In this document: positions 4,324-14,777 of the stretch, in pieces
How positions within the stretch are numbered: the stretch's first letter is position 1
Layout: each line of letters begins with the position of its first letter
DNA from: Pseudomonadota bacterium
GTDB taxonomy: Bacteria; Pseudomonadota; Gammaproteobacteria; Xanthomonadales; Xanthomonadaceae
Assembly: GCA_021821195.1 (NCBI GenBank)
Contig: JAKACT010000010.1
Location: forward strand, 1-35,105
Reading direction: 5' to 3'
Length of the DNA: 35,105 nucleotides
Made by a program: the position numbers and the translations under genes
Notes under the pieces: model-generated
The model's input: the letters and a program-made list of their open reading frames with translations, nothing else
Told to the model about the DNA's origin: nothing
The model's database searches: none

Positions 4324-5331
4324 GTGGCAGCACTAGCGCACATGATCGATGCCCGCACGGGCGCGGACGCCAGCGCGTCCGCGCTGCACCCTGACGAGTA
4401 CGCGCTGTTCGCGCAGGTAGCCCGGTCCTGCCAGGTGGAAGCCGGGCATAGGCTGTTCCGGCGCGGCGACCACGGCGACGCCATGTACGTGGTCGCCAAT
4501 GGCGCCGTCGAACTGGATTTCGGCGATGACCTGGTCGGCAAGCGGCTGGGTGCGCGCGCCTTCTTCGGCGAGTTGGGCCTGCTGATCGGCGACCACGCCC
4601 GCAGTGCCGACGCGATGGTGGTCGAGGCCGGCGAGCTGCTGGAGCTGGGCCGCGATGAATTCGAACTGTTGGCCCAGCGCGACCCTGCGCTGCTGGCGCA
4701 GTTCCTGCGCCGCGCGATCATGCGGGTGGTGCTCAACGAGCAAGCGCTGATCGCGCGCCTGCGCCGGCGCAACCAGGACCTGCAGGAAGCCCTGGACGCG
4801 CTGCGGTCGGCCACCAACCGGCTGGACGAGTCCGAGGCGCTGACCCGTACCGACGAGCTCACCGGGCTGACCAACCGGCGCGGGTTCGCCGCGCACGTGG
4901 AGCAGCGGCTGCAGGCCGGTGGACTGGACGGGCATGTGCTGGTGCTGGTGGACTGCGACCGCTTCAAGTCGATCAACGACACCTACGGCCACCTGGCGGG
5001 CGACCGCGTCCTGCAGAGCGTGGCCAACCTGCTGCGCGCCGTGGCGGGTGCCGACGACATCGTCTGCCGGCTGGGCGGCGACGAGTTCTGCCTGATCCTG
5101 AGCGGCCACACCCGCGACGGGGCGGAGCGGATCGCCGGCTACGTCACCGACAGTGCGCGCATGCTCGAACGCATGCACAACAGCCCGCCGCAGATGACCA
5201 CGCTCAGCATCGGCGCCTGCCTGATCGGGGCCGGCAGCCATGCGGGTTGGGAACACTGGTACGCGCTGGCCGATGACGCCCTGTACCGGGCGAAGCGCAA
5301 CGGCGGCGACTGTGTCGAGTGGCTGGATTGA
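4324..5331 (+). CDS. cNMP-binding diguanylate cyclase (cNMP-GGDEF)
   Basis: About residues 20-135 form a cyclic-nucleotide-binding (CRP-like) beta-barrel, with RRGDHGDAMYVVANGAVELD and a FFGELGLLIGDHARSADA phosphate-binding cassette. A short helix leads to a GGDEF domain with LTRTDELTGLTNRRGF, DCDRFKSINDTYGHLAGD and an intact GGDEF motif at 251-255, so it should make c-di-GMP. The inhibitory RxxD site expected five residues before GGDEF is absent (GADD instead). GTG 4324 follows a GGGGAG; ATG 4342 is an alternative. The open frame reaches back to 4270, but TATCCT at 4279-4284 looks like a -10 element. The cyclase gene starts 7 bases after the stop. The arrangement matches X. campestris XC_0249, reported as a cGMP-responsive diguanylate cyclase. 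Confidence 0.88.
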   Translation: MAALAHMIDARTGADASASALHPDEYALFAQVARSCQVEAGHRLFRRGDHGDAMYVVANGAVELDFGDDLVGKRLGARAFFGELGLLIGDHARSADAMVVEAGELLELGRDEFELLAQRDPALLAQFLRRAIMRVVLNEQALIARLRRRNQDLQEALDALRSATNRLDESEALTRTDELTGLTNRRGFAAHVEQRLQAGGLDGHVLVLVDCDRFKSINDTYGHLAGDRVLQSVANLLRAVAGADDIVCRLGGDEFCLILSGHTRDGAERIAGYVTDSARMLERMHNSPPQMTTLSIGACLIGAGSHAGWEHWYALADDALYRAKRNGGDCVEWLD

Positions 5332-5338
5332 CGGGCGC

Positions 5339-7828
5339 ATGCAGGACGCCAGCGCGCCGCAGGTTCGCACGCTCCTGCTCACCGACCTGGTGGATTCCAC
5401 CCATTTGGTGGAGCGGTTGGGCGATGCCGCCGCGGCCGCGCTGTTCCGCGCCCACGATCGCCTGGTGCTGGAGCTGCAGCAACGCTGGCGCGGCCGGCTG
5501 ATCGACCGCAGCGACGGCCTGCTGCTGCTGTTCGAACGCCCCATCGACGGCCTCGCCTTCGCCCTCGACTACGCCCGCGGCCTGCGCGACCTGGGCCGCG
5601 AAATGCAGGTCAAGCAGCCGCTGCAGGCGCGCGCCGGCCTGCACGTGGGCGAGGTGCTGGTGTGGGAGAACAGCGCCGATGCGGTGCGGCTGGGTGCCAA
5701 GCCACTGGAAGTCGAGGGTCTGGCCAAGCCGCTGGCCGGCCGGCTGATGGCGCTGGCGCGGCCCGGCCAGATCCTGCTGTCGGCCACCGCCGAGCCGCTG
5801 GCCCACCGCGCCGCGCGCGAACTGGGCGAGCGCGGCGAGCTGCTGGTCTGGAAGTCCTACGGACGCTGGCGCTTCAAGGGCATTCCCGAGGCGCAGGAGG
5901 TCCATGAAGTCGGCGAGCCCGGCCTGGCGCCGCTGCGCATCCCCGCGCATACGCCCAAGGCCTGGCGCGACCTGCCGCTGTGGCGGCGGCCGGTGGCGCT
6001 GGCGGCGGAAGCCCTGCTGGTGGCCGGCATGGCCATCGGCGCGTGGTTCCTGGCCCAGCCGAAGCCGGCCATCGCCTTCGCGGAACGCGACTGGGTGGTG
6101 GTCGGCGACCTGCGCAACCTCACCGGCGACCCGCGCCTGGACGAGGCGCTGGAGCAGGCGTTCCGGATCAGCCTGGAGCAGTCGCGCTACGTCAACGTGC
6201 TGGGCGACCTCAAGGTGCGCGACACCCTGCAGCGCATGCAGCGCAAGCCGGACGCAGCGGTGGACCGCGCGCTGGGTTCGGAAATCGCCCTGCGCGACGG
6301 CGCGCGTGCGCTGCTGCTGCCCACCGTGGCCGAAGTCGGCGGCCGCCTGCGGGTCAGCGCCGAGGTCGTCGACCCGCACACCCAGACCACCGTGTACGCG
6401 GTATCGGCGGATGGCAAGGGCATCGAATCGGCGCTGGGCTCCATCGACGATGTCACCGACCAGCTGCGCGGCAAGCTGGGCGAGGCCCTGCAGAACGTGC
6501 AGAAGACCTCGGTGCCGCTGCCGAACGTGGCCACCCCCAGCCTGGATGCGCTGAAGGCGTTCGCGGTGGCGCGCAACGTCGCCAACACCTCGCAAGATCG
6601 CGAACAGGCGCTGGGCCTGTACCGGCGCGCGCTGCAGCTGGACCCGCAGTTCGCGCTGGCCTACGCCGACATCGCCCGCCTGCATGCCGCGCTGGGCGAA
6701 GTGGCGCAGGCCAGCGAGGCCTGGCGCAGGGCGCAGGCGTTGCCGCAGCGGCTGTCGCCACAGGAACGCCAGATGGTCGAGCTGATGCTGGCCTCGAACG
6801 ACGGTCCGGCCGCGTACTTCCGCAAGGCAGAGGAATATCTGGCGCTGTATCCGGATGACTATCGCGTCATCAGTCGGTTGTCGGCCAATCAATGGCATCA
6901 GCGCAACGATTTCCGTACCGCCGAATCGCTGATCCGACGCAGCTTGAAACCGCAGTTCGAGCGCCTCGGCGCGGCGCACTACAGCTTGGGCATCTATCTG
7001 CTCGGTCAGGAAAAATACGATGCCGCCCTGCTGGAATTCCGCCGGGCGAGCGAGACTGGTTTCCTCGGTGCGGGTGAGCTGCACGCGCGCGTTTACGACG
7101 CACGCGGCCAGCATGCGCAAGCCGACAAGACCTATGCCGCCAGCACCAGCGGGCGCGATGGCTGGCAGGGCGAAACGGCGGTGATCACCTGGCTGGATCG
7201 TGGCCAGCCCACCCGCGCTGCCGACGCCGCGCGTGAATGGCGGCAACGCATGGACGCGGACGATAACCTGGCTGAACGTCTGCGTGCCCGCGCGGCGGTG
7301 GCCGCAGTGGCGGCTCTGTCGGGTCAAGGCGATCCCGGTCCGGCGCTGCGCGACCTGTTGACGCTGGTGAATGCGCGGGAATCCGACGCCAGCGCCATCT
7401 ATCCTCCGCTCTCCGCGGAGCTGCGGCTGTTTGCCGGACTGCTGGCCGCCCATCGCAGCGATCGCGCTGGAGTAGACGAAGCCCTGCGCCGTACTGAAGG
7501 CAGCGCGCTGGTGCGCGACTATCCGACGTTAGCGCAGCTGCGGCAGGTGTTGCTGGCCGAACAGGAGCGGTTGGCCGGCCAGCCGCGCGCGGCGCTGGCG
7601 CGACTGCGGCCGCTGGCGCAGCGCGACACCGCGCTTGTGGCCGTGCATTGGGCGCTGCTGCGGTCTGCGCAGGCGGCGGGTGACGCGGCCGGCGCGCAGG
7701 CACAGATGCGCTGGTTCGCAAACCATCGCGGCCGTGTCTTCGCCGAAAGAACGACCAGCGAAGTGCTGTGCTTCTTCAACGCCGGCATCGCGGCGCGCGC
7801 CGCGTCCACTGCGATGCCGATGAAGTGA
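5339..7828 (+). CDS. Class III nucleotide cyclase with TM segment and TPR region (peptide modification system cyclase family)
   Basis: The 829-residue product has an N-terminal class III cyclase domain (about 9-185). Candidate metal-binding aspartates are D16 (LLLTDLVDST) and D59 (IDRSDGLLLLF), 43 residues apart as in the family. Later comes the AGRLMALARPGQILLS block. One membrane segment lies near 218-238, followed by a FlgO/TolB-like region (WVVVGDLRNLTGDPRLDEAL) and tetratricopeptide-like helices from about 424 (ALGLYRRALQLDPQFALAYA). The catalytic face is divergent: by eye, the transition-state Asn before AGRL appears to be Pro. ATG 5339 is 7 bases from the previous stop. The order matches X. 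campestris XC_0250, reported to make cGMP, and I recall a TIGRFAM family calling such proteins peptide modification system cyclases. Base composition becomes less GC-rich from about 6840. Confidence 0.82.
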   Translation: MQDASAPQVRTLLLTDLVDSTHLVERLGDAAAAALFRAHDRLVLELQQRWRGRLIDRSDGLLLLFERPIDGLAFALDYARGLRDLGREMQVKQPLQARAGLHVGEVLVWENSADAVRLGAKPLEVEGLAKPLAGRLMALARPGQILLSATAEPLAHRAARELGERGELLVWKSYGRWRFKGIPEAQEVHEVGEPGLAPLRIPAHTPKAWRDLPLWRRPVALAAEALLVAGMAIGAWFLAQPKPAIAFAERDWVVVGDLRNLTGDPRLDEALEQAFRISLEQSRYVNVLGDLKVRDTLQRMQRKPDAAVDRALGSEIALRDGARALLLPTVAEVGGRLRVSAEVVDPHTQTTVYAVSADGKGIESALGSIDDVTDQLRGKLGEALQNVQKTSVPLPNVATPSLDALKAFAVARNVANTSQDREQALGLYRRALQLDPQFALAYADIARLHAALGEVAQASEAWRRAQALPQRLSPQERQMVELMLASNDGPAAYFRKAEEYLALYPDDYRVISRLSANQWHQRNDFRTAESLIRRSLKPQFERLGAAHYSLGIYLLGQEKYDAALLEFRRASETGFLGAGELHARVYDARGQHAQADKTYAASTSGRDGWQGETAVITWLDRGQPTRAADAAREWRQRMDADDNLAERLRARAAVAAVAALSGQGDPGPALRDLLTLVNARESDASAIYPPLSAELRLFAGLLAAHRSDRAGVDEALRRTEGSALVRDYPTLAQLRQVLLAEQERLAGQPRAALARLRPLAQRDTALVAVHWALLRSAQAAGDAAGAQAQMRWFANHRGRVFAERTTSEVLCFFNAGIAARAASTAMPMK

Positions 7829-7882
7829 GCGTGGCCCGGGAAGTCCCGGTTCACGCCTTTGGATCGTCGACGGCGGTGCGGA

Positions 7883-8167
7883 TCAGAGCCCGGCGGTCGC
7901 CTGTTCGTCCAGCGGGCAGACCATGCCCTGGATGCCGCTCAGTGCATCCTCCAGCTTGGCGCGCTGTTTCTTGATCTCTTCGGGTGATGCAAGTCCCGAC
8001 TTCAGGCTCATGCATGCCCACGGATCGGTATAACCCAGCGAGCGCAATGCCTGCTCCGGTGATTTCTGGAACAGCGCGCGAAAATCGTCGTTGCTTTCAA
8101 GGTTGTCCAGCAGCTTTTTGACCAGCTGCGGATGCAGGCCAGCGGGCGGAATGGTGGGCTCGGGCAT
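7883..8167 (-). CDS. Putative modified (RiPP-like) precursor peptide with NHLP-type leader
   Basis: A 94-residue product. Residues about 12-46 (LVKKLLDNLESNDDFRALFQ, then KSPEQALRSLGY) resemble the nitrile-hydratase-alpha-like leaders of some ribosomally made, post-translationally modified peptides. The C-terminal part has two cysteines, C52 in DPWACMSLKSG and C84 in GMVCPLDEQ, and no double-glycine processing site that I can see. The start at 8167 has AGGGG about 10 bases upstream; longer in-frame starts would run back into the dehydrogenase gene. It lies antisense between the cyclase, which converges on it, and the dehydrogenase, which diverges from it. I recall such small genes being grouped in silico as putative modified peptides beside these two enzymes. 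The modification and activity are unknown. Confidence 0.75.
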   Translation of the reverse strand: MPEPTIPPAGLHPQLVKKLLDNLESNDDFRALFQKSPEQALRSLGYTDPWACMSLKSGLASPEEIKKQRAKLEDALSGIQGMVCPLDEQATAGL

Positions 8168-8234
8168 CGCGGTGTTTCCCCTGTTGGATGGAGCCGCGAC
8201 AATACCATCGCGATGCAACGGGGGACGTACGCGA
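8168..8234. promoter_or_regulatory. Divergent control region between peptide and dehydrogenase genes
   Basis: Only 67 bases separate the two start codons. On the minus strand TGGTATTGTC contains a TATTGT hexamer that could be the -10 of the peptide gene. A GGGGGA purine run at 8221-8225 serves as the ribosome site of the dehydrogenase. A shared region this small suggests joint control of substrate and enzyme, but no operator dyad stands out. Confidence 0.4.
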
Positions 8235-9470
8235 ATGCGACTCAGGCGATGTGCGGTGGCGTGGCTGGAGCCGCGCGAGGTGGCAACGTTCCAGCTGGAT
8301 GACCTGCTGTCCGGCGGCACCGGCGTGGTGGCGCGGCTGGCGTGGTTCGCACACGCGCCGCATCTGGGCGAAGCGGTGGAGGTCGATGCTGCTCACGTGC
8401 CGCTGCTGGGCGCGCTGGGCGCCATCGACTGGATCGAGCGGGCGAGCCTTGATGCGCAATTCGGAACGGATGCGGTGGATGCGCTGCTGGCCGCTGGTCT
8501 GTTGTTGCCGCAGCCGGAGGAGGGCGAAGACGCGCTGGCCGATGCCGGCTTCCGCGCGCAGGGCTGGCACCCGCCGGCGGCGGTCGCGCACATGGCCGGG
8601 CGCTGGCAGGCCATCGACGGCCCGAAGGGGATGGCCGAACAGGACTTGGACAGCAACGAGGGCCTGTTGCGCCAGCACGGCCTGCCGCCGCCGCGAGAAA
8701 CGCCGGCATCGCCGGTGGCTGCGATGCTGGCACTGCCACGCGTCGAGCGCGATGGCTTCGACGCACTGCTGGATACCCGCGCGACCTGCCGCAATTACGA
8801 CACCGCCGCCGCGGTGCCGCTGGCGACTTTTTCGCAGCTGCTGGCGCGGGTGTTCGGTGCGCGCGGCAGTGGCCATCCCGCGCCCGGCTTCGACGTCAGC
8901 AAGCGCACCAGTCCCTCCGGCGGCGCGCTGCATCCCACCGAGTGTTTCCTGATCGTGCAGCGGGTGGAAGGGATCGCCGCGGGCTTGTACCGCTACCGGG
9001 TCGAAGGGCATGCGCTGGAGCCGGTAGTGCCGCATATCGCGCCGCCGCAGGCCGGCGACGTGGGCACGCATGCGCTGGGCGATGCCGCGCCGCGCGCATG
9101 GAGTGCAGGGGAGCTGCGTGCGTTCGCGCGGATCGCGGTGGCCGGGCAGGACTTCTTTGCCGATGCGCCGGTGTTGTGCGTGCTGGCGCCGCGCTTCCAT
9201 CGTAATTTCTGGAAGTACCGCAACCACGCCAAGGCCTACCGCGTCTGCGTGCTCGACGTCGGCCACCTGTCGCAGACATTGCAGCTATGCGCCACCCAGG
9301 CCGGCTTGGGCCCGTTCGTCACCGGCGCGATCAATGAAGTGGATATCGAACGCGCGTTCGGGATGACCGGCTACGTGCAGAGCCCGCTCGTGGTGTGCGG
9401 CTTTGGCCCGCGTGCGGCCACGCTGGTGGAGTCCGAATTCGACCCCAACCGGTTGGTCTGGCCGCGCTGA
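8235..9470 (+). CDS. SagB-like peptide maturation dehydrogenase
   Basis: A 411-residue product. The first 150 or so residues form a family-specific N-terminal part without a motif I can name. From about residue 180 there is a SagB/nitroreductase-type flavin domain: RATCRNYD near 182 for FMN phosphate, TSPSGGALHPTE near 226, and YRNHAKAYRVCVLDVGHLSQ near 328 with GLGPFVTGAINE. SagB-type enzymes oxidise azolines to azoles in thiazole/oxazole peptides. No YcaO cyclodehydratase is present here, so the substrate chemistry must differ or be supplied from elsewhere. I recall a TIGRFAM for exactly this subgroup. ATG 8235 was chosen for GGGGGA at the right distance; an upstream open frame antisense to the peptide gene is unlikely to be used. 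Confidence 0.82.
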   Translation: MRLRRCAVAWLEPREVATFQLDDLLSGGTGVVARLAWFAHAPHLGEAVEVDAAHVPLLGALGAIDWIERASLDAQFGTDAVDALLAAGLLLPQPEEGEDALADAGFRAQGWHPPAAVAHMAGRWQAIDGPKGMAEQDLDSNEGLLRQHGLPPPRETPASPVAAMLALPRVERDGFDALLDTRATCRNYDTAAAVPLATFSQLLARVFGARGSGHPAPGFDVSKRTSPSGGALHPTECFLIVQRVEGIAAGLYRYRVEGHALEPVVPHIAPPQAGDVGTHALGDAAPRAWSAGELRAFARIAVAGQDFFADAPVLCVLAPRFHRNFWKYRNHAKAYRVCVLDVGHLSQTLQLCATQAGLGPFVTGAINEVDIERAFGMTGYVQSPLVVCGFGPRAATLVESEFDPNRLVWPR

Positions 9471-9613: not shown

Positions 9614-11922
<2,309 letters not shown>

Positions 11923-11928
11923 CCGACG

Positions 11929-13833
11929 CTACTCTTCCACCCGGTCGCGGCCTTCGTGCTTGGCCCGATAGAGCGCCGCGTCCGCACGCGCGAACAGGGA
12001 TTCGCGGGTGTCGCCGGGGTGCGCTTCGGCAATGCCGATGCTGGTGCGGACGTGCAGCGCGGGGTCGATGTCCGGCAGCTGCAGGGTACGGGTAGCGCCA
12101 AGCAGGCGGTTGGCGATCGCCAGCGCCTGCTCGCGGTTGGCGTCCACGCAGACCACCACGAATTCCTCGCCGCCGATCCGTCCCAGCAGGTCGCGCCCGC
12201 GCAGCTGTGCCTGCCAGGCCGCGGTGGTGGCGCGCAGCACTGCATCGCCAGCGGCATGGCCGTAGCGGTCGTTGATCGTCTTGAAGTGATCCAGGTCCAG
12301 CAGCAGCATGGTGAGCGGTGTTTGTGCCCGGGCCGACTCGGCCAATTCCCGTTCGAGGATCTTCTCGATGGCGCGGCGGCTAGCCACCTCGGTTAGCGGG
12401 TCGGTCATCGCCAGCGTGCGCAGGCGGCGCGTGCGCTGGCGCTGGCGCAGGGCCAGCGCCACCAGCACGGCGACCAGCAGCACGCCCAACAGCAGGGCAA
12501 GGGTCTGCCACCCGCGGATCCGTTCGAGCGCCTTCAGCTGCGACTGGCGGGTGCTGGCTTCGGCGCGCAGCCGGTGGTTCTCGAACTCGCGCTTGCGGAT
12601 CTCGTATTCGTATTCCAGCAGGCGGCTCTGCTCCAGCCGCATCTTGCCCTGCAAGGAGGTCTGCAGCGTCGAGTAGCGCTTGTAGTCGGCCAGTGCGTTG
12701 GCGGTACTGCCCAGCGCTTCCTCGCTGGCGGCGCGCGCCTGGTAGAGCAGGGCCAGGTAGCGCTGGTTGCCGTCTTTTTCGATCAGCGGCAGCGCCTGCG
12801 CGTAGCGGGCCATCGCTTCCTGATGCTGGCCCTTGCCGGCCAAGGCCTGGCCGGTCAGCAGCAGCCGCATGTCCGCGCTGGCGTTGACGCCTTCGGCGTC
12901 GAAGATCGCCTGCGCCTGCGCCAGCGTGGCCAGCGCGGCGTCGTGCTCGCCCAGCGACACTTGCGCGGCGGCCAGCCCCACCTGCGCATTGGCGGCACTG
13001 AGCGGCAGCTTGTGGGCATTGGCGACGTCGATGGCGCGGGCGAACGAGGCCTTCGCTTTTTGTGGCTTGCCGGACTCGTCGTAGAGGAAGCCAAGCTGCA
13101 CCAGGTCGGTGACCACCCGATCCCAGTCCTGCTTGTCCTGCATGGTTTCCACCGAGCGGGTGAAGTAGCGCTCGGCCTGCGCCCAGTCGCCGATGCGGCG
13201 GTAGGTGATCGCGATCCACAGCATCAGCGTGTCGATCTCGTGGTCGATCCCGGCTTGGCGGAAGCTGGCGCGGGCGCGCTGGAAGTCCAGCAGCGACCGG
13301 GCCTGCTCACCCTGCTGGGAAAGCAGCGAACCGCGCTGGATCAGGGCCTCGCCAAGCAGCTGCGATTCCGTGGAATTTTCCAGCAGGCGCACCATGCGGT
13401 CGGCTTCGCGCAGTGCCTGTCCGGCGCCCTCGAGCTCCTGCACGTAGCCGATCCGGCAAAACTGCGCGCGCCCCTGCGAGGCCAAGTCGCCGGCCTCGCG
13501 GGCGCGGCGCTGGGCCTCGTCGGCATAGGCCAGCCCCTGCTTCGGATCCTTCCAGCGCTCGCTGGTGCAATACACCGAGCGGAACTGCACTTCGCGCTTG
13601 CGATCCCCCGGCGGCAGCAGCACGCGCAGTTGCTGCAGGTACGCCTCGTAGCGCTCGTAGGTCATGTCCATCGAACCGGGGCCGATCACCTCGGCGAACA
13701 CCGTGTCGAAGCGGCTTGCCGACGGCACCGCTGCATCGCGCTGGGTGCCCGGCTGGGCGGCCACGGCCGTGCTGGCCGCCAGCACGAGTGCCAGCAGCAG
13801 GCTTGCCTTACGCAGCAACCGGGTCATTTCCAT
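11929..13833 (-). CDS. Membrane-bound TPR sensor diguanylate cyclase
   Basis: A 634-residue product with an N-terminal signal-like segment (about 5-27, LLRKASLLLALVLAASTAVA). A long periplasmic tetratricopeptide-like helical region follows to about 390, then a coiled coil (about 395-438) and a membrane segment near 440-462 (LALLLGVLLVAVLVALAL). A cytoplasmic GGDEF domain closes the protein. The active motif is GGEEF at 554-558, and an RxxD inhibitory site (RGRD) stands exactly five residues before it, so feedback inhibition by c-di-GMP is expected. DLDHFKTINDRYGHAAGD is intact. ATG 13833 is supported by AGGAG five bases upstream. The input signal is unknown. It is a stand-alone gene converging on glnB. 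Confidence 0.9.
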   Translation of the reverse strand: MEMTRLLRKASLLLALVLAASTAVAAQPGTQRDAAVPSASRFDTVFAEVIGPGSMDMTYERYEAYLQQLRVLLPPGDRKREVQFRSVYCTSERWKDPKQGLAYADEAQRRAREAGDLASQGRAQFCRIGYVQELEGAGQALREADRMVRLLENSTESQLLGEALIQRGSLLSQQGEQARSLLDFQRARASFRQAGIDHEIDTLMLWIAITYRRIGDWAQAERYFTRSVETMQDKQDWDRVVTDLVQLGFLYDESGKPQKAKASFARAIDVANAHKLPLSAANAQVGLAAAQVSLGEHDAALATLAQAQAIFDAEGVNASADMRLLLTGQALAGKGQHQEAMARYAQALPLIEKDGNQRYLALLYQARAASEEALGSTANALADYKRYSTLQTSLQGKMRLEQSRLLEYEYEIRKREFENHRLRAEASTRQSQLKALERIRGWQTLALLLGVLLVAVLVALALRQRQRTRRLRTLAMTDPLTEVASRRAIEKILERELAESARAQTPLTMLLLDLDHFKTINDRYGHAAGDAVLRATTAAWQAQLRGRDLLGRIGGEEFVVVCVDANREQALAIANRLLGATRTLQLPDIDPALHVRTSIGIAEAHPGDTRESLFARADAALYRAKHEGRDRVEE

Positions 13834-13922
13834 CCGGGCTCCTGCATGCCATCGCCGCGGCATCGCGACAGGTTGATGGTATGCGGTTTTCCGGCGGCAG
13901 TGGGGGAGCTGCCCCCGGTATT

Positions 13923-14777
13923 TCAGGCTTTCAGGGCGGCCGTCACAAACGGCGGCAGGCTCTGCGCGCCCTTGTGGATGTCGGCGGTGTAGTAGAGCGT
14001 GGCGAAACCCTTGCCGCGGGCGTCCGCCTCGCGGAAGCCGAAATCGGCATTCGCCACCTTTTTCGCCATCGTGCAGCTCCACCAGCCGGTGGGGTAGCAG
14101 GGCTGCGGGAACGGCAGGGTCTGGAAGCCGTGGAAGCCGGCCTTGCCCATTTCCGCGCGCATCGCCTTGATCAGGTCGAGCAGCACCAGCGGCGATTCGC
14201 TCTGCTGCACCAGGATGCCGTCGTCCTTGAGCGCGCGGTGGCAGCTTTCGAAGAAGGCCTTGTTGAACAGCCCTTCGGCCGGGCCGACCGGGTCGGTGGA
14301 GTCCACGATCACGATGTCCACGCTGCCGGGTTCGCAGTTGGCCATGTAGGCGATGCCGTCATCGAACAGCAGCTCGGCGCGCGGATCGGCGTTGGATTCG
14401 CACAGCTCGGGGAAGTACTTCTCCGCCATCCGCGTGACCTGCTCGTCGATGTCGCACTGGACGGCCTTCTCCACGCCCGGGTGGCGCAGCACCTCGCGTA
14501 GCGTGCCGCAGTCGCCGCCACCGATGATGACCACGCGCTTGGGGTCGGCATGGGTGAACAGCGCGGGATGCGACATCATCTCGTGGTAGAGGAAGTTGTC
14601 GCGGCTGGTCAGCATCATCGCGCCGTCGATCAGCATGACGTTGCCCCAGTCGGTCGACTCGAAGATTTCGATCTTCTGGAACGGCGACTGCACCTCGTCC
14701 AGCTTGCGGGTGATGCGGAAGCCGATGGACGAGCCGGCCTTGTCGAAGTTCTCGTACAGCCAGTTGGAGTCGGTCAT
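13923..14777 (-). CDS. speE: Polyamine aminopropyltransferase (spermidine synthase)
   Basis: The enzyme transfers an aminopropyl group from decarboxylated S-adenosylmethionine to putrescine to give spermidine. The 284-residue product has the nucleotide-binding GGGDCGTLREVLRHPGVEKA and CDIDEQV, and the catalytic DSTDPVGPAEGLF segment. Gate residues in QSESPLVLLD and FPQPCYPTGWWSCTMA are recognisable. ATG 14777 gives the common MTDSNWLYENF start but has only a weak ribosome site. It is divergent from speA. The intermediate enzyme for agmatine to putrescine is not in this window. Confidence 0.95.
   Translation of the reverse strand: MTDSNWLYENFDKAGSSIGFRITRKLDEVQSPFQKIEIFESTDWGNVMLIDGAMMLTSRDNFLYHEMMSHPALFTHADPKRVVIIGGGDCGTLREVLRHPGVEKAVQCDIDEQVTRMAEKYFPELCESNADPRAELLFDDGIAYMANCEPGSVDIVIVDSTDPVGPAEGLFNKAFFESCHRALKDDGILVQQSESPLVLLDLIKAMRAEMGKAGFHGFQTLPFPQPCYPTGWWSCTMAKKVANADFGFREADARGKGFATLYYTADIHKGAQSLPPFVTAALKA

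Follow-up and report, generated by a model that had tools for sequence, protein, structure and literature searches.

Organization of the locus

The window, the whole stretch of DNA analysed here, comprises 35,105 nucleotides of contig JAKACT010000010.1 (assembly GCA_021821195.1) from a member of the Xanthomonadaceae and is contig C12 of a 2.92 Mb genome that is 98% complete. All four genes that a preliminary description had observed in this DNA were found at positions 4324–9470 (Table 1): a gene for a cyclic nucleotide monophosphate (cNMP)-binding GGDEF protein, a gene for a TIGR04510 membrane cyclase with a tetratricopeptide repeat (TPR) region, which starts 7 bases behind it, a TIGR04509 precursor peptide gene and a TIGR04511 dehydrogenase gene. 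This study concerns the exchange of parts of this locus between relatives as an allelic cassette, in which the TPR part of the cyclase, the C-terminal core of the peptide and, in the larger exchanges, the dehydrogenase are replaced together inside conserved surroundings.

The three TIGRFAM models match far above their curated cut-offs, with scores at one locus of 63.9 bits for TIGR04509 (cut-off 34), 921.8 bits for TIGR04510 (cut-off 400) and 460.5 bits for TIGR04511 (cut-off 240). Their NCBIfam names, 'NHLP-related RiPP peptide' (nitrile hydratase leader peptide; ribosomally synthesized and post-translationally modified peptide), 'putative peptide modification system cyclase' and 'putative peptide maturation dehydrogenase', imply a modification system but are silent on allelic swapping, on the effector and on a signalling role. 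The AlphaFold model of the window cyclase (mean predicted local distance difference test score, pLDDT, 90.5; predicted template-modelling score, pTM, 0.66) divides the protein into a catalytic domain, a membrane helix, an α/β-domain (labelled 'TolB-like' here) and a TPR superhelix.

Table 1 Features of the four-gene locus in the window
Feature	Position	Strand	Basis
cNMP-binding GGDEF protein, relative of XC_0249; predicted cyclic GMP (cGMP)-activated diguanylate cyclase; conserved output side	4324..5331	+	Pfam cNMP_binding and GGDEF
TIGR04510 membrane cyclase, family of guanylate cyclase XC_0250	5339..7828	+	Profile, AlphaFold, residue check in Xanthomonas
Cyclase catalytic domain (model residues 1–190), conserved side of the swap	5354..5923	+	
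Single transmembrane helix (model residues 213–234), left edge of large swaps	5990..6055	+	Predicted
α/β-domain past the membrane helix (model residues 246–382)	6089..6499	+	Model secondary structure; entropy 1.04 bit
TPR superhelix (model residues 397–823), predicted periplasmic sensor, highly variable among relatives	6542..7822	+	Model; mean entropy 2.27 bit
TIGR04509 NHLP-related precursor peptide, convergent with the cyclase	7883..8167	-	Profile
Predicted variable C-terminal peptide core (QGMVCPLDEQATAGL), beside the 3' end of the TPR-coding region	7886..7930	-	Alignment split
67-base divergent region between peptide and dehydrogenase starts	8168..8234		Sequence
TIGR04511 SagB/McbC-type flavin mononucleotide (FMN) dehydrogenase with N-terminal domain	8235..9470	+	Profile

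Exchange of the cassette between close relatives

Between X. arboricola pv. juglandis (L156) and X. arboricola NL_P126 (L194) the cNMP-GGDEF protein is 96% and the cyclase catalytic domain 98% identical, after which identity falls to 64% across the membrane stretch, 51% in the following domain and 40% and 29% along the length of the TPR part, with values of 36% for the peptide and 44% for the dehydrogenase. DNA identity in 150-base windows is mostly 90–97% between positions 450 and about 6560 of L156, apart from dips between genes; it is 31–64% from there as far as about 10300 and has returned to about 95% at 10351. The left edge of the exchanged stretch is an abrupt drop in DNA identity within the cyclase gene, and the right edge lies within about 250 bases past the dehydrogenase, the match to which ends at position 10108 of L156. 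X. euroxanthea (L189) carries a third, mutually divergent version of the cassette inside the same flanks. That the cassette is swapped is near certain.

Smaller exchanges, which replace the TPR part together with the core-coding half of the peptide gene, were seen in Pseudoxanthomonas (L143/L155) and in the pairs L046/L056, L053/L055 and L032/L160. Their right edge falls inside the peptide gene, between leader and core: the retained DNA is 89–96% identical in the dehydrogenase gene and 91–99% identical in the leader half, and the replaced core half is 59–75% identical. Because the peptide gene nearest to the cyclase is convergent with it in all 132 distinct loci compared, the core-coding and TPR-coding ends are neighbours and a single recombination can exchange both.

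Covariation of the cassette parts in close pairs

The comparison was restricted to single-cyclase loci that carry the complete four-gene set, with a dehydrogenase match above 350 bits, which excluded loci with a second cyclase or lacking cNMP-GGDEF; 178 loci passed, of which 132 are distinct. From the distinct loci, 42 close pairs with at least 88% identity in the catalytic domain and at least 80% in the GGDEF protein were picked greedily, each locus being used once (84 of the 132), so that they do not form a strict phylogenetic sample. A pair was termed swapped when its TPR identity was below 60%. This applied to 23 of the 42 pairs (TPR identity 24–59%), eight of them within the genus Xanthomonas and 15 elsewhere, with median identities of 96% for GGDEF, 97% for the catalytic domain, 46% for the leader, 30% for the core and 58% for the dehydrogenase; in the 19 unswapped pairs the corresponding medians were 98, 97, 93, 95 and 91%. 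As a control, the DNA before the cNMP-GGDEF gene had a median identity of 90% in the swapped pairs (all 23) versus 91% in the unswapped pairs (17 of the 19 could be measured), whereas the last 1.2 kb of the cyclase gene had medians of 49% and 86%, respectively. The left edges of the swapped pairs fall at cyclase residues 210–222 in nine, 253–294 in six and 328–409 in eight; right-hand extents were judged from feature-wise identities, without L185/L220, and the cyclase end of L038/L164 was scored as 0.

TPR identity correlates with that of the core (Spearman coefficient 0.93), of the domain after the membrane helix (0.92), of the dehydrogenase (0.83) and of the leader (0.79), and far less with that of the GGDEF protein (0.29) and the catalytic domain (0.17). 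When GGDEF, catalytic domain, leader and dehydrogenase are taken into account, the partial correlation between TPR and core is 0.77, a value reached in none of 10,000 permutations, and the partial correlations of the TPR part with the leader and with the dehydrogenase are −0.10 and 0.37, respectively. Single-linkage clustering of the 132 loci gave 85 TPR clusters at 60% identity and 43 dehydrogenase clusters at 65%.

Cassette types in Xanthomonas

Within the genus Xanthomonas, 25 distinct loci resemble L156 at the same limits for catalytic domain and GGDEF protein, and they fall into five types, with TPR, core and dehydrogenase types coinciding in 25 of 25. On a quick tree built from 4.4 kb of upstream, cNMP-GGDEF and catalytic DNA, each of the three requires at least nine changes of type. 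Cores are nearly constant inside a type (for example, NHTVIFAFES-S-RSTL) and dissimilar across types (for example, NMQPIRLNVPSGSSPQLKK). For one representative of each type, the nearest TPR part outside the genus (that is, outside everything named Xanthomonas by NCBI or GTDB, and excluding L227, a further Xanthomonas locus considered below) is 39–50% identical, compared with 24–34% for the other Xanthomonas types, in five of five cases; the nearest dehydrogenase outside the genus is 51–63% identical, compared with 35–48% for the other types, and these nearest relatives mostly carry similar cores. One further Xanthomonas genome, G171 (L232), has a cyclase gene that was matched in several pieces.

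Relation to the cGMP relay of Xanthomonas

The cyclase domain of XC_0250 synthesizes cGMP, and XC_0249 binds cGMP with a dissociation constant (Kd) of 0.29 µM, upon which its diguanylate cyclase activity increases (An et al., 2013; PMC3770947). Passages of the same paper and of a 2019 review (PMC8042644) term the TPR part of XC_0250 uncharacterised, and the 2013 paper, in its treatment of that part, names no input for it; the words 'peptide', 'dehydrogenase', 'nitroreductase' and 'periplasm' and the genes XC_0248 and XC_0251 do not occur anywhere in its main text. Both protein families and the linkage of their genes recur at the present locus, and active-site and cGMP-contact residues were traced in relatives.

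The comparison with XC_0250 was made through published residue numbers in Xanthomonas relatives, not through the XC_0250 sequence. By number and letter, the six residues mutated by An et al. (D41, D71, L73, A150, L157 and A161) are all matched in seven of 13 Xanthomonas loci and five of them in the remaining six, one of which, L185, fits only if counted from one codon upstream of its ATG; the link to the Xanthomonas cGMP pair made in the preliminary description thus holds, and the window cyclase is, judged by family and gene order, an orthologue of XC_0250. In the cNMP-GGDEF proteins, the cGMP-contact residues F73, E90, H98 and E146 of XC_0249 are matched in all 132 loci and N145 in 119, the numbering being anchored on PDB entry 5h5o, which from that numbering appears to be XC_0249. 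The window protein has all five residues, and the GGDEF motif is intact in 132 of 132 loci.

A degenerate, dead cyclase was set aside, since neither metal-binding Asp residue of the cyclase varies and activity has been published for XC_0250, a member of the same family. Four residues ahead of the conserved Arg, at what is presumably the canonical site of the transition-state Asn, the alignment to 1ybt shows Pro in the window cyclase and His in 1ybt. Within 5354–5923, the published metal Asp D41 corresponds by numbering to the Asp of the ERIGD stretch, and it is the Asp of the TDLCDST motif, not the D41 position, that aligns with class III cyclases; the published L157 and A161 positions likewise lie off the conserved Arg region as aligned to 1ybt.

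Distribution, loss and surroundings of the locus

Among 149 genomes of Xanthomonadaceae, the cyclase and the peptide each exceeded their cut-offs in 93; the dehydrogenase did so in 91 and had matches at E ≤ 0.001 in 95. The preliminary description had named, as evidence that would speak against it, a peptide and dehydrogenase that occur mostly without the cyclase; the cyclase family is instead present in all 93 peptide-bearing genomes (91 over cut-off, and in pieces in G011 and G120), as is a dehydrogenase match (a few being contig-end fragments). None of the 149 genomes has a peptide match in the absence of the cyclase family, a direction of dependence that fits a peptide serving the cyclase. 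Conversely, the cyclase occurs without a peptide match in two genomes: G054, which retains cyclase and cNMP-GGDEF without a peptide or dehydrogenase match, and G126, in which the cyclase pieces stop at contig ends and no cNMP-GGDEF was found within 2.5 kb of the cyclase. One extra dehydrogenase match, in G130, is weak and partial. The cNMP-GGDEF gene lies upstream of the cyclase in 86 of the 95 cyclase genomes (in G120 in pieces, 3.4–3.9 kb off), and in one, G141, the cyclase neighbourhood is cut by a contig end. Across 398 phylum-wide genomes the peptide exceeded its cut-off in eight, every one from the order Xanthomonadales (six Xanthomonadaceae and two of another family), and one further match elsewhere in the phylum was below cut-off.

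The locus is flanked by malate synthase and isocitrate lyase genes on one side and by genes for a YifB-type ATPase, a P-II protein and a TPR-GGDEF protein on the other, the last being assigned by profile for its GGDEF part but by sequence similarity alone for its TPR part. Nearby, at 11929–14082 on the minus strand, there is a second GGDEF gene, which is also found near the same locus in L253, L254, L259 and L092. States of loss were read from 13 aceA neighbourhoods of genomes lacking the full set (one just 1.8 kb long). In G131 the isocitrate lyase gene adjoins the YifB gene and all four cassette genes are gone, and in G107 (L254), G060 (L261) and G052 (L264) cNMP-GGDEF alone is retained at the same locus, with cyclase, peptide and dehydrogenase lost. 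In L132 (X. vasicola), L210 and L219 the peptide and cyclase genes are whole and the dehydrogenase is a fragment, which may reflect decay.

Expanded clusters without cNMP-GGDEF were seen in L110 (G067; two cyclases, three dehydrogenases and five peptide matches) and L112 (G022; one cyclase and a fragment, five dehydrogenase matches, one of them a fragment, and nine peptide matches). In L120 (G040), five tandem near-identical peptide genes at 5759–7611 precede the dehydrogenase and cyclase, and the cyclase has a divergent N-terminal motif (VLVCDERELALCVERLD). A Stenotrophomonas-like four-gene locus, L172, stands in a record titled Bacillus subtilis SK7B5; its closest pair is L180 (S. rhizophila), and the record is probably mislabelled or contaminated. 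A simple scan gave no sigma-70-like site in the 67-base divergent region of the window, and a simple scan for promoters and terminators gave nothing exceeding shuffled sequences.

Peptide modification

The dehydrogenase has a nitroreductase-type FMN fold with a Lys-Tyr dyad, which we take to be a hallmark of SagB/McbC dehydrogenases, and thus fits that type. The SagB, McbC and ThcOx azoline dehydrogenases belong to azole RiPP systems; here, in contrast, YcaO is rare, being absent from the genome of the window and over cut-off in only nine of 93 cluster genomes, and 11 of 132 cores contain no Cys, Ser or Thr. An azole reading (thiazole/oxazole-modified microcin, TOMM, or linear azol(in)e-containing peptide, LAP) was ruled out for lack of YcaO. 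A Peptidase_C39 match occurs somewhere in 64 of the 93 cluster genomes; there was none in the genome of the window or in the two other cluster bearers of its genus, by which C39-dependent export, the route of NHLP peptides exported by peptidase-containing ATP-binding cassette transporters (PCAT), was ruled out as a general route.

Discussion

The joint replacement of TPR part, core and dehydrogenase clearly favours one of the two alternatives in the preliminary description, a signal read by the TPR part, and leaves the other, a peptide that is an output of the pathway, less favoured. By analogy with known polymorphic systems, the peptide core is probably the cognate ligand of the TPR sensor, the two forming a polymorphic signal–receptor unit with cGMP and then cyclic di-GMP (c-di-GMP) as output. 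The dehydrogenase would bind the NHLP-type precursor by its leader and oxidize the C-terminal core without YcaO, conceivably by α,β-desaturation, as in cyclodipeptide oxidases, which share its fold; the core, whole or in part, would reach the periplasm or the outside; the periplasmic TPR superhelix would recognize its own core type, as the joint allelic replacement suggests; recognition would alter the guanylate cyclase activity reported for XC_0250, presumably through TPR control; and cGMP would bind the neighbouring cNMP-GGDEF protein, in which the binding residues are conserved, and raise c-di-GMP as reported for XC_0249. Since the types differ among close relatives, each lineage would respond mainly to its own peptide. 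There is about an even chance that the locus belongs to a polymorphic, trans-genus 'pherotype' system of the Xanthomonadales with a membrane guanylate cyclase as the receptor of a peptide pheromone: its TPR half, in the periplasm, would read a dehydrogenase-modified RiPP core, kin of one type would thereby raise cGMP and then c-di-GMP, and ligand, modifier and sensor would be exchanged as one module by recombination both inside lineages and across them.

The Agr systems show a variable signal and sensor with a conserved output. In ComQXPA, variation is greatest in the tail of the precursor and in the part of the receptor that senses it, and the output side is conserved, according to sections of one report (PMC4008528). 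As in these systems of Firmicutes, enzyme, precursor and sensor part covary here among relatives and the output side is conserved, and it is this resemblance of joint replacement to ComQXPA that leads us to propose a peptide-type-specific receptor guanylate cyclase. The receptor there is a histidine kinase, whereas here a class III guanylate cyclase that carries a TPR sensor is the candidate, and the present precursor is of NHLP type with a flavin dehydrogenase, its secretion as a signal being only proposed. The RRNPP peptide receptors are cytoplasmic TPR regulators of Gram-positive bacteria. They share with the present proposal a TPR superhelix as binder of a short peptide, but the present TPR part is joined to a cyclase and lies beyond a predicted membrane helix.

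Several observations weigh against a cognate ligand and sensor. Helix entropies, with A and B helices assigned by alternation, show the concave-side helices to be no more variable than the others, so that there is no binding-groove signature. The middle segment of the peptide also tracks the TPR part (Spearman coefficient 0.91), and this was not partialled out. L096 has TPR identities of 74–75% and core identities of 8–15% with L097 and L098, and among 135 pairs with cores at least 70% identical, three have TPR identities below 45%. L227, a 26th Xanthomonas locus outside the similarity limits, pairs its own TPR part (51% to type 4) and its own core (35%) with a type-4-like dehydrogenase (66%). 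In the genus of the window itself, comparison with L094 and L099, which completes its three cluster-bearing genomes, gives TPR identities of 66–69% and core identities of 33–40%, which shows drift, not a swap; the swapping is seen in relatives. In eight of the 95 cyclase genomes, cNMP-GGDEF is absent from the examined stretch upstream of the cyclase. As to export, the first 35 residues of the peptide contain no secretion-like hydrophobic stretch, the missing Peptidase_C39 matches in the genus of the window count here as well, and no linked exporter was found, radical S-adenosylmethionine (SAM) enzymes and other transporter families not having been searched genome-wide. Finally, since the TPR-coding and core-coding 3' ends are adjacent, their joint swapping can come partly from physical linkage.

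This last point leads to the alternative of physical hitch-hiking, in which another driver (such as a peptide that evolves freely, or selection by phage or host acting on the TPR part) carries neighbours along without functional matching. It would suit the adjacent, convergent ends in 132 of 132 loci and the faster turnover of the TPR part relative to the dehydrogenase (in an earlier all-pairs table of 126 loci and 354 close pairs, 76 had the TPR part changed and the dehydrogenase kept, and none the reverse), but is nevertheless unlikely: cores fall below 50% in just two of 118 pairs with TPR identity of at least 70%, both of them the L096 exceptions, leader and core behave differently despite sharing one short gene, and the matching extends across genera, the nearest TPR parts and dehydrogenases from outside Xanthomonas beating the other Xanthomonas types for all five representatives. 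It is also rather unlikely that the peptide is antimicrobial or self-toxic and the TPR part of the cyclase a matched immunity or warning sensor, with competition driving the diversity and signalling being secondary. Matched polymorphism suits toxin/immunity pairs too, and some genomes have several peptide matches (five in G040 and nine in G022); however, the variable part belongs to the same protein as a conserved second-messenger enzyme, encoded downstream of its effector gene in 86 of 95 genomes, cyclase and effector persist in G054 in the absence of peptide and dehydrogenase matches, and cores are nearly unchanged inside a Xanthomonas type. A peptide whose production or export is controlled by cGMP or c-di-GMP, with the TPR part as a scaffold for maturation or export, is improbable, for although scaffolding is a common role of TPR proteins and the peptide always accompanies the cyclase family, the peptide gene lies on the opposite strand and so shares no operon with the cyclase, and one would expect a scaffold to be matched to the leader or the enzyme, whereas the TPR part tracks the core, not the leader, and the dehydrogenase more weakly.

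In conclusion, this study describes the locus as an allelic cassette; the swap of its TPR part, core and dehydrogenase is new with respect to the literature found, in which no open-access paper links XC_0250 to a peptide or describes such a swap. For the cGMP pathway of Xanthomonas, which bears on biofilm and virulence, the pattern of swapping names a candidate ligand for the TPR input, namely the core of the neighbouring peptide. If the proposal of a cognate ligand and sensor is true, the cassette would be a Gram-negative, cyclase-based addition to polymorphic peptide signalling and a bacterial counterpart of the peptide-receptor guanylate cyclases, together with a RiPP chemistry that uses a dehydrogenase only.

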